Origin: Bacillota bacterium
Lineage (GTDB): Bacteria; Bacillota; UBA4882; UBA8346
Assembly: GCA_029974635.1 (NCBI GenBank)
Contig: JARKQY010000058.1
Location: forward strand, 62,001 to 126,000
Length of the DNA: 64,000 bases
Direction: 5' to 3'
Below the pieces are notes generated by a model. The model searched no databases, was not told where the DNA came from, and saw only the letters and a list, made by a program, of their open reading frames with translations. Of the stretch, positions 21,096 through 22,880 are shown one piece after another; positions within the stretch are counted from its first letter, which is position 1; the number at the start of each line of letters is the position of its first letter. Position numbers and translations under genes: made by a program.

Positions 21096-21101
21096 GTGAA
21101 A

Positions 21102-21824
21102 TTGTTAAGAGGCCTTTATACATCAGCTACCGGGATGGTCGCGGAAATCGACCGGCAGAATGTGATTGCCAACAATCTTGCCAATGTCAACACGGTAGGT
21201 TTTAAAAAGGACAATGTGACTACAACTCCTTTTGCGGAACTTTTTTTGAACGCCTATAATAAAAGAGGAGTGGCACCCATCGGAAGATTGGGCTTGGGAG
21301 TGGAAGCCGTAACCCAATATGTGAATTTTACCAATGGTCCGGTGCACGTTACCAATAATCCAGCGGATTTGGCAATTCACGGTTCCGGCTTGTTTGCAGT
21401 GGAAACTCCCAATGGGATAAAATACCAGCGGGCCGGGAACTTTGTAATTGACAGGGATCGTTACTTGGTAACTCAGGAAGGAAATCGAGTGCTTGGGGAA
21501 AATGGTCCCGTACAATTGGAAGGAGACTTTCATATAACCGAAGACGGTTTGATTACGCAAGGGCAAGGTGTGGTAAACCGGTTGCAGATATTCAGCACTG
21601 ATGGAATGGTGAAAATGGGCGAATATCTCTATACCAGCGAAAATCCCATACCGGCCGAAAATTATCAAATTGTTCAAGGGGCGTTGGAACACTCCAATAT
21701 CAATACCGTATATGAAATGGTGCAAATGATTACCGCTACCCGAAATTATGAATCCAATCAGAAAGCCTTAATAGCTCACGATGATACTCTGGGTAAAGCT
21801 GTTAACGAATTAGCCCGGGCTTAA
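21102..21824 (+). CDS. flgF: Flagellar basal-body rod protein FlgF
   Basis: A proximal rod component of the flagellar axis, exported by the flagellar type III system. The 240-residue protein has the rod signature LRGLYTSATGM at the start, NNLANVNTVGFKK, a central DLAIHGSGLFAVETP, and the C-terminal heptad motif EMVQMITATRNYESNQKAL. It is shorter than the second rod protein and begins LRGLYTS, so I assign FlgF. TTG at 21102, seven bases after AGGAGG, is preferred to the GTG at 21096, which is too close to that site. It heads a flagellar rod/ring cluster. Confidence 0.88.
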   Translation: MLRGLYTSATGMVAEIDRQNVIANNLANVNTVGFKKDNVTTTPFAELFLNAYNKRGVAPIGRLGLGVEAVTQYVNFTNGPVHVTNNPADLAIHGSGLFAVETPNGIKYQRAGNFVIDRDRYLVTQEGNRVLGENGPVQLEGDFHITEDGLITQGQGVVNRLQIFSTDGMVKMGEYLYTSENPIPAENYQIVQGALEHSNINTVYEMVQMITATRNYESNQKALIAHDDTLGKAVNELARA

Positions 21825-21861: not shown

Positions 21862-22021
21862 GGCAGTTGAAGTAACCGGACCGCTTGCGGGGGTTAACGA
21901 AAGATCGAACGAAAGAGATCTTTCCACTGTCAAACCAGCTGAATGATGAAAGCTTTCTTTCTGTTCAGCCATGTTTATTATACTTCAACTGTCCAATTTT
22001 AAAAATTTTGGACAGTTTTTT
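21862..22021 (+). promoter_or_regulatory. Attenuator-like structured RNA upstream of flgG
   Basis: A 13-bp stem P1 (21862-21874 with 21981-21993) closes three hairpins: P2 (21874-21895, AACC/GGTT with inner CCGC/GCGG), P3 (GAAAGATC/GATCTTTC, 21899-21924) and P4 (GCTGAA/TTCAGC with inner GAAAG/CTTTC, 21938-21969). The 3' strand of P1 overlaps the 5' strand of a terminator, AACTGTCCAA pairing with TTGGACAGTT before a T-run (21987-22021). P1 and the terminator are therefore mutually exclusive, as in riboswitches. No known class fits. Confidence 0.6.
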
Positions 22022-22088
22022 ATTTCCTTCGATATTTATTTAAATAATTTATTTAAATATAATTGGTTTTGATTAGGAGGCTTTGCCA

Positions 22089-22880
22089 ATGATAAGAGCT
22101 TTATGGACTGCAGGAACCGGAATGATAGCGCAACAAACCAATATTGACACCATATCCAATAATCTCTCCAACGTGAATACGGTTGGGTTTAAAAAGGTTA
22201 GAGCCGAATTTGAGGATTTACTTTATCAGACGTTGCGGGCTCCCGGTAATTCCGCCCTTGGTACTCCCGGCCAACTTCCAACTGGATTACAAGTCGGTCT
22301 CGGCGCAAGGTTGGCAGCCACCAACCGTTTGTTTAGCCAAGGAAGCGCCCAGCAAACAGGTAATCCATTCGATTTAATGGTGGAAGGCGACGGGTTTTTT
22401 CAAGTTCAGCTCGTTGATGGGCGGATAGCCTACACCCGCGGCGGCAATTTTAAGGTCGATGGCGAAGGCCGGCTACTGGACAATGAAGGAAATTATGTAG
22501 TCCCGGAGATCACGATTCCAGATGGCAGCGCCGATTTGAGTATATCTCAGGATGGAACCATAACGGTGGTATTACCTGGTGAAAACGTTCCAACGGAGAT
22601 CGGGAGGTTTGAATTGGTCAGGTTTATTAATCCGGCAGGTTTGCTGCCGATGGGACGGAATCTATTTGTCCAATCCAGTTCATCCGGTGAACCGGTAATT
22701 GCCACGCCGGGAACTGAAGGGCTTGGGACCATTATTCAGGGCGCATTGGAAATGTCAAATGTGCAGATCGTTGAAGAGATGGTGAACATGATTGTAGCCC
22801 AACGGGCCTATGATGTGAATTCAAAAGCAGTCCAAGCATCTGATGAAATGCTCCAAGTCGCCAATAATTTACGCCGTTAG
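22089..22880 (+). CDS. flgG: Flagellar distal rod protein FlgG
   Basis: Distal rod subunit on which the L and P rings assemble. The 263-residue protein has IRALWTAGTGMIAQQ, NNLSNVNTVGFKK, RLFSQGSAQQTGNPFDLMVEGDGFF and the C-terminal motif QIVEEMVNMIVAQRAYDVNS, all typical of FlgG, and the family length. ATG 22089 lies eight bases after AGGAGG; the TTG two codons earlier is too close to it. Transcription into flgG must pass the terminator-like structure at 21987-22021, so its expression may be controlled separately from flgF. Confidence 0.95.
   Translation: MIRALWTAGTGMIAQQTNIDTISNNLSNVNTVGFKKVRAEFEDLLYQTLRAPGNSALGTPGQLPTGLQVGLGARLAATNRLFSQGSAQQTGNPFDLMVEGDGFFQVQLVDGRIAYTRGGNFKVDGEGRLLDNEGNYVVPEITIPDGSADLSISQDGTITVVLPGENVPTEIGRFELVRFINPAGLLPMGRNLFVQSSSSGEPVIATPGTEGLGTIIQGALEMSNVQIVEEMVNMIVAQRAYDVNSKAVQASDEMLQVANNLRR

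Follow-up and report, generated by a model that had tools for sequence, protein, structure and literature searches.

An apparently undescribed structured RNA preceding flgG and flgE that probably acts as a switch for flagellar rod and hook genes

Introduction

Flagellar assembly is a textbook problem of ordered construction, and its known checkpoint, FlgM/sigma-28, acts after completion of the hook. Regulatory RNAs are familiar in this setting: the c-di-GMP-I and c-di-GMP-II riboswitches lie in flagellar operon leaders of Clostridia and can work via terminators. Ribosomal-protein autoregulatory leaders are protein-sensing mRNA leaders of structural genes with varied output modules. Another RNA, Termite-flg, reportedly occupies a 5'-leader position. 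Termite-flg and flg-Rhizobiales have both been named among candidate RNAs (PMC2864571).

Here we analyze an element located between flgF and flgG in the window, i.e. the whole 64,000-nucleotide stretch of Bacillota DNA under study, together with its homologues in other genomes. The RNA, for which we use the working name flgEG leader RNA, probably represents a class that has so far escaped description.

Results

An attenuator-like leader between flgF and flgG

The locus in the window comprises the following features, all on the forward strand.

21096..21824, + strand: flgF, proximal rod protein, upstream gene of the same operon (ORF list; TIGR02490, TIGR03506)
21862-21874, + strand: P1, 5' strand, GGCAGTTGAAGTA (sequence, folding)
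21873-21896, + strand: P2 hairpin with the invariant core YGGAC/GRR (covariation)
21878-21880, + strand: GGA of the P2 internal loop, opposite G21891 (invariant core)
21899-21924, + strand: P3 hairpin (compensatory changes)
21907-21916, + strand: P3 loop, GAACGAAAGA, consensus GANYGANNGA, with tandem G.A / A.G pairs
21932-21976, + strand: third hairpin, P4 (folding; kept in close relatives only)
21981-21993, + strand: P1, 3' strand, TACTTCAACTGTC, common to the terminator
21987-22021, + strand: intrinsic terminator, arms AACTGTCCAA (21987-21996) and TTGGACAGTT (22008-22017)
22016-22021, + strand: T run of the terminator
22076-22080, + strand: flgG Shine-Dalgarno sequence GGAGG (sequence)
22089-22880, + strand: flgG, distal rod protein (TIGR02488, E 1.5e-109)

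The flgF product matched TIGR03506 (E 3e-50) and TIGR02490 (E 4.7e-50, under the equivalog cut-off of that model). The flgG start is likely the ATG at 22089, the listed ORF beginning at the TTG at 22083.

P1 is a perfect helix of 11 bp, or of 13 bp if one G-U pair is counted. When the RNA was folded from 21862 to 21995, short of the 3' arm of the terminator, the 13-bp P1 closed three hairpins at -44.8 kcal/mol (z -4.92), a stability reached by 0 of 200 shuffles; this is the architecture that the first-pass annotation had proposed at the same coordinates. Extending the fold through 22030, and hence including the 3' arm, allowed the terminator to displace P1 in the minimum-energy structure (z -3.15). 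The P1 and terminator states are mutually exclusive because 21987-21993 belongs to both, and the 3' strand of P1 thus doubles, as had been noted, as the 5' part of a rho-independent terminator whose arms are followed by a T run. This terminator escaped a simple terminator scan on account of its 11-nt loop. The P2 register backed by covariation is AACC-GGA-CCG/CGG-G-GGTT, as in the fold through 22030; by energy alone and with P1 formed, the register of P2 is shifted relative to it. The earlier description of three well-formed hairpins holds in that all of them fold, but only P1, P2 and P3 are conserved and the third hairpin varies in length and sequence among relatives.

A DNA search of the family showed that relatives also have this element between flgF and flgG; a GGCAGT strand is the counterpart of the P1 5' strand in eight of the nine other members. 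P1 and the terminator share a strand in at least seven of the ten family members (G000, G003, G004, G005, G006, G008 and G009), with the shared arm in G003 and G005 assigned by reading the sequence, overriding the automatic choice; no clear shared arm is seen in G001, G002 and G007. Three genomes of another family (L042-L044) have the same P1/terminator layout in a different sequence, GGACAGGGG/CCCCTGTCC. The flgF-flgG spacer of G001 (L041 1335-1500) contains a local repeat, CGCAAATCATATCCACG, twice, as well as a long hairpin with the RNA downstream of it. Two properties of a transcription-attenuating, riboswitch-type leader were found: a mutually exclusive terminator and antiterminator that share a strand, here and in relatives, and an aptamer-like conserved core with covariation. 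Together with the covarying homologous spacers, they support the attenuator layout suggested at the outset.

The P2/P3 core is under strong covariation and matches no Rfam family

A covariance model of hairpins P2 and P3 (R1) was used to scan whole genomes blind to context, and a second model (R2) was built from 29 sequences; the 100 matches outside the R2 building set are referred to as A4. In 29 sequences, 13 of the 16 base pairs covary. Within A4, changes on both sides were observed at 15 of 16 pairs, including compensatory change at all eight pairs of P3, and 94.5% of cells pair. None of 500 shuffles of A4 reached any of five measures, and structures slid by 1-3 columns dropped to 35-54% paired. 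The 11 strongest covarying column pairs among 1485 in A4 are every one a predicted pair. The GGA of P2 is conserved at 100/100/98% of A4 and the pair C11-G41 at 100%. The P3 loop follows the consensus GANYGANNGA in 92 of 100 sequences, and its first non-canonical pair covaries between G.A and A.C (95 versus 5 of 100). The inner stem of P2 is mostly of the CCGC/GCGG or CUGC/GCAG type at flgG and of the CCUC/GAGG type at flgE. This covariation rules out chance hairpins, and we consider it close to certain from the alignments that the element is a real and widespread class of structured RNA. The homologues with covariation that the first-pass annotation had proposed to look for upstream of flgG thus exist in relatives, with strong signal.

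At gathering thresholds, a scan of the window with Rfam 15 (4227 families) returned only two tRNAs. Permissive scans of the element and 20 homologous loci gave nothing near any threshold on the element, in agreement with the earlier statement that no known class fits. The Termite-flg model (RF01729) exceeded its cut-off in 0 of 29 genomes and produced no weak match on these elements. We did not find a description of the RNA in the open-access literature, and a prior description may exist elsewhere; the large structured-RNA surveys examined made no mention of flg, flagell or motility other than the names flg-Rhizobiales and Termite-flg in one of them. An upstream-peptide attenuator, prompted by a GGAGG located 5' of P3, was rejected on family alignments that have neither a conserved start codon nor a conserved reading frame.

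The RNA occupies two main positions in flagellar operons

At the class level, all 19 confident R1 matches lie between flgF and flgG, each in a different genome. R2 at E <= 0.01 detected the RNA in 205 of the 399 sampled Bacillota genomes, and in 204 of the 333 sampled genomes that have FlgE/F/G-type proteins (61%). Inspection of the context of more than 100 R2 matches revealed that nearly all those examined occupy two positions, flgF-[RNA]-flgG and TIGR02530-[RNA]-flgE. All 100 A4 matches are at flgG or flgE; 97 of them have a recognized start, 54 in the former arrangement and 43 in the latter. In a check of 14 genomes, 25 of 27 matches were in flgG/flgE contexts, the two exceptions (L293 and L296) having E values of about 0.002-0.003. 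These two and the other weak matches (L060, L306-L308) are probably due to chance, as is L114 (26 bits). An exact-pattern genome scan gave, among the matches listed, mostly chance ones in GC-rich genomes. FlgG of Thermincola and HGW-Firmicutes-14 (L117, L148, L149, L183, L194 and L195) is longer and contains an additional internal segment at which the FlgG alignment splits; at L117 2603-3781 it measures 392 aa.

The source genome has a second copy of the RNA, on contig C4 between TIGR02530 and flgE, in which the core is intact. This copy (L292 1500-1575, - strand) contains an extra hairpin between P2 and P3; the covariance model aligns the inserted hairpin, giving a falsely degenerate P2 for what is in sequence an intact core.

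The RNA, of which the shape but not the letters is kept in Bacillota and elsewhere, extends to at least three other bacterial phyla. Coprothermobacter platensis and a related MAG (Coprothermobacterota) have strong matches with the RNA 5' of flgE. Strong matches were also present in a Desulfuromonadaceae MAG, in the order FliK-FlgD-TIGR02530-[RNA]-FlgE, and in an Omnitrophota MAG (L168 4812-4985), in which the RNA, followed by an intrinsic terminator, heads flgB-flgC-fliE-fliF-fliG-fliH; these two MAGs may contain binning errors. A gene for a STAS-like protein lies 5' of the RNA in the Omnitrophota locus. By sequence comparison, the core is far more widespread than the attenuator and also occurs 5' of flgE, which goes beyond what the first reading of the window had in view. 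The possibility raised there of a transposon end was discarded, as was that of a MITE: the genome has one DNA copy, the homologues are at fixed orthologous flagellar sites, and the strong matches examined occupy orthologous or paralogous flagellar positions.

Alternative pairings link the core to terminators and Shine-Dalgarno sites

At flgE, the inner 5' strand of P2, GGACCUC, complements the Shine-Dalgarno region GAGGUC. Elements with GGACCUC occur together with GAGGUC Shine-Dalgarno sites in 24 of 35 cases versus 3 of 62 (Fisher 2e-11), and the GGACCCC copies (L231, L232, L265 and L269) have GGGG-type sites. At flgG, the 3' strand of P2 and the linker complement the Shine-Dalgarno sequence. 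In a swap test, which compared pairing to the own Shine-Dalgarno site with pairing to the sites of other genomes and whose p-values ignore shared ancestry, own pairing was better for the 5' strand of P2 at flgE (p 0.0006) and had its greatest advantage for the 3' strand of P2 together with the linker at flgG (p 0.0001); no other segment reached p < 0.01 except the P3 loop at flgG.

Enforcing the core during folding raised the mean accessibility of the Shine-Dalgarno sequence from 0.37 to 0.44 at flgE (p 0.004) and from 0.49 to 0.58 at flgG (p 5e-5). The gain is small on average and absent at many loci, and strong at some (L228, 0.07 to 0.81; L237, 0.06 to 0.80). These pairings suggest that the output of most copies is translational rather than transcriptional. 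Comparison of sequences establishes the core with its base pairing, the two principal places that it occupies in genomes, and the alternative pairings that compete with it.

TIGR02530 is a candidate partner of the RNA

The gene adjoining the flgE copy of the source genome is the following.

G000:C4:7289-7579 (L292 1575-1964), - strand: TIGR02530 (flg_new), conserved flagellar-operon protein

The gene for the small TIGR02530 protein adjoins every flgE copy examined, including that of the Desulfuromonadaceae MAG, where it is directly upstream. With ancestry ignored, TIGR02530 was found in 202 of the 205 RNA-positive genomes; counted in the same way, the genomes that encode FlgE/F/G-type proteins have the RNA in 201 of 279 cases with TIGR02530 versus 3 of 54 without. 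No TIGR02530 was detected in the RNA-positive genomes G291, G351 and G364 (completeness 84, 79 and 95%), and 78 genomes have TIGR02530 with no RNA detected. The co-occurrence may stem from one inherited type of flagellar operon.

An AlphaFold2 model of the TIGR02530 domain had a pLDDT of 91. In a fold search, the closest structures were small phage proteins with weak matches (best E-value 0.0075), among them one with a DUF4258 annotation (prob 0.96) and a site-specific RNA endonuclease of phage origin (prob 0.54); the search of the domain model against the PDB gave no match and that of the full-length protein found nothing. DUF4258 and the matched, RegB-like phage RNA endonuclease are RelE-like folds. 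The model is consistent with a possible RNA-binding RelE-like fold for TIGR02530, which we regard as the best candidate for a partner of the RNA.

Discussion

We consider it likely (probability about 0.7) that flgEG leader RNA is a cis-acting ON switch for distal rod and hook genes. The receptor would be the two-hairpin core, consisting of P2 with its YGGAC/GRR internal loop and P3 with its GANYGANNGA loop, and a factor acting in trans would stabilize this core to turn the downstream gene ON. In the window, closed P1 would withhold the 5' arm of the terminator, allowing transcription to pass flgF into flgG-flgA-flgH-flgI-flgJ, and in the absence of the factor the terminator would form and flgG expression would stop. 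At flgE and most flgG copies, folding of the core would release the Shine-Dalgarno sequence from pairing with a P2 strand. We infer this sign, core folded with the gene ON, and the main argument for a switch is that the three output modules agree in it. The factor would set when, or in what amount, the export substrates of distal rod and hook are made; more speculatively, it would be a protein, with TIGR02530 as the leading candidate.

What the core might sense can be read in two ways. TIGR02530 may bind the RNA directly and match hook and rod synthesis to its own amount or export state, a reading that is possible but less likely than not. Its gene adjoins every flgE copy examined, Desulfuromonadaceae included, the co-occurrence is 202/205, and the domain model resembles a DUF4258 protein (prob 0.96) and a phage RNA endonuclease (prob 0.54). 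Against this, the best fold E-value is no better than 0.0075 with no PDB match, G291, G351 and G364 have the RNA with no detected TIGR02530, and the co-occurrence count ignores phylogeny. Slightly less likely is a metabolite or second-messenger riboswitch, in which the P2/P3 core binds a small molecule, e.g. a nucleotide signal, and the bound state permits rod and hook expression. Interchangeable output modules are a typical riboswitch trait, and here terminator and Shine-Dalgarno modules are interchangeable on a receptor that is small and strongly conserved and whose unpaired bases are invariant; the Omnitrophota copy, with its terminator, heads the flgB-flgC-fliE-fliF-fliG-fliH operon. However, nearly all copies serve structural axial-protein genes, no transporter or enzyme gene hints at a ligand, and the tie to one protein family, TIGR02530, is strong. 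A multi-phylum flagellar checkpoint, in which a dedicated RelE/DUF4258-like TIGR02530 would read the RNA and license flgG and flgE together via interchangeable terminator and Shine-Dalgarno outputs, is a tentative proposal and, taken whole, rather unlikely.

Three further explanations are less likely. The products of flgE and flgG are needed in more copies than the product of the upstream gene, and the RNA sits within operons, preceding the genes with the higher copy need; its hairpins could be a cleavage site or a 5'-end protection through which the output of flgE and flgG exceeds that of the genes upstream of them. Such a processing or stability element is improbable, as a stabilizer needs neither invariant internal and apical loops nor covarying pairings with Shine-Dalgarno and terminator sequences. 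An address tag directing the flgE and flgG messages to the export gate of the flagellum, where export would be coupled to translation, would suit an RNA that abuts the start codons of two genes for early rod/hook export substrates, but the terminator-coupled copies imply control of transcription and, among the matches examined, flgF and flgD of the same genomes have no copy, making this reading a long shot. Binding of CsrA, as at Bacillus flagellin mRNA, is the least credible. The GGA is invariant, and CsrA acts on flagellar mRNAs (PMC4894983); yet this GGA lies in an internal loop, conservation reaches far past it, and G004, G020, G021 and G022 (94-99% complete) have the RNA and no CsrA. CsrA as a universal partner is ruled out by such nearly complete RNA-bearing genomes. 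The RNA is probably, judging from the comparative evidence, a switch governing how bacteria build the flagellar rod and hook. Its conserved placement before the distal rod and hook genes points to an undescribed control point that would act earlier than FlgM/sigma-28, and it offers a specific hunt for a ligand, protein or small molecule, with TIGR02530 as a candidate partner.

Among known systems, Termite-flg (RF01729) is likewise an orphan structured RNA tied by name to flagellar genes (PMC2864571), but it is reported from termite hindgut only and its model misses these elements. The flg-Rhizobiales RNA (RF01736) is also a candidate RNA linked to flagellar genes (PMC2864571), restricted to Rhizobiales and with no match in the Rfam scans here. 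The c-di-GMP-I and c-di-GMP-II riboswitches share the flagellar operon leader position and the terminator output, whereas the core of flgEG leader RNA is distinct and without Rfam match. CsrA-FliW on flagellin mRNA is similar as leader-based post-transcriptional control of a flagellar axial protein; it works at flagellin, while flgEG leader RNA occurs in CsrA-free genomes. EAR (epsC, RF01735) is, like the present element, a structured RNA within a long Bacillota operon, but EAR acts by processive antitermination, in contrast to a local switch in which the neighbouring terminator incorporates a P1 strand, and it gave no Rfam match here. Leaders of the ribosomal-protein type, also without Rfam match, differ in that flgEG leader RNA precedes rod and hook rather than ribosomal genes and has a protein partner at the level of a candidate, but the two are alike in serving structural genes through varied output modules.
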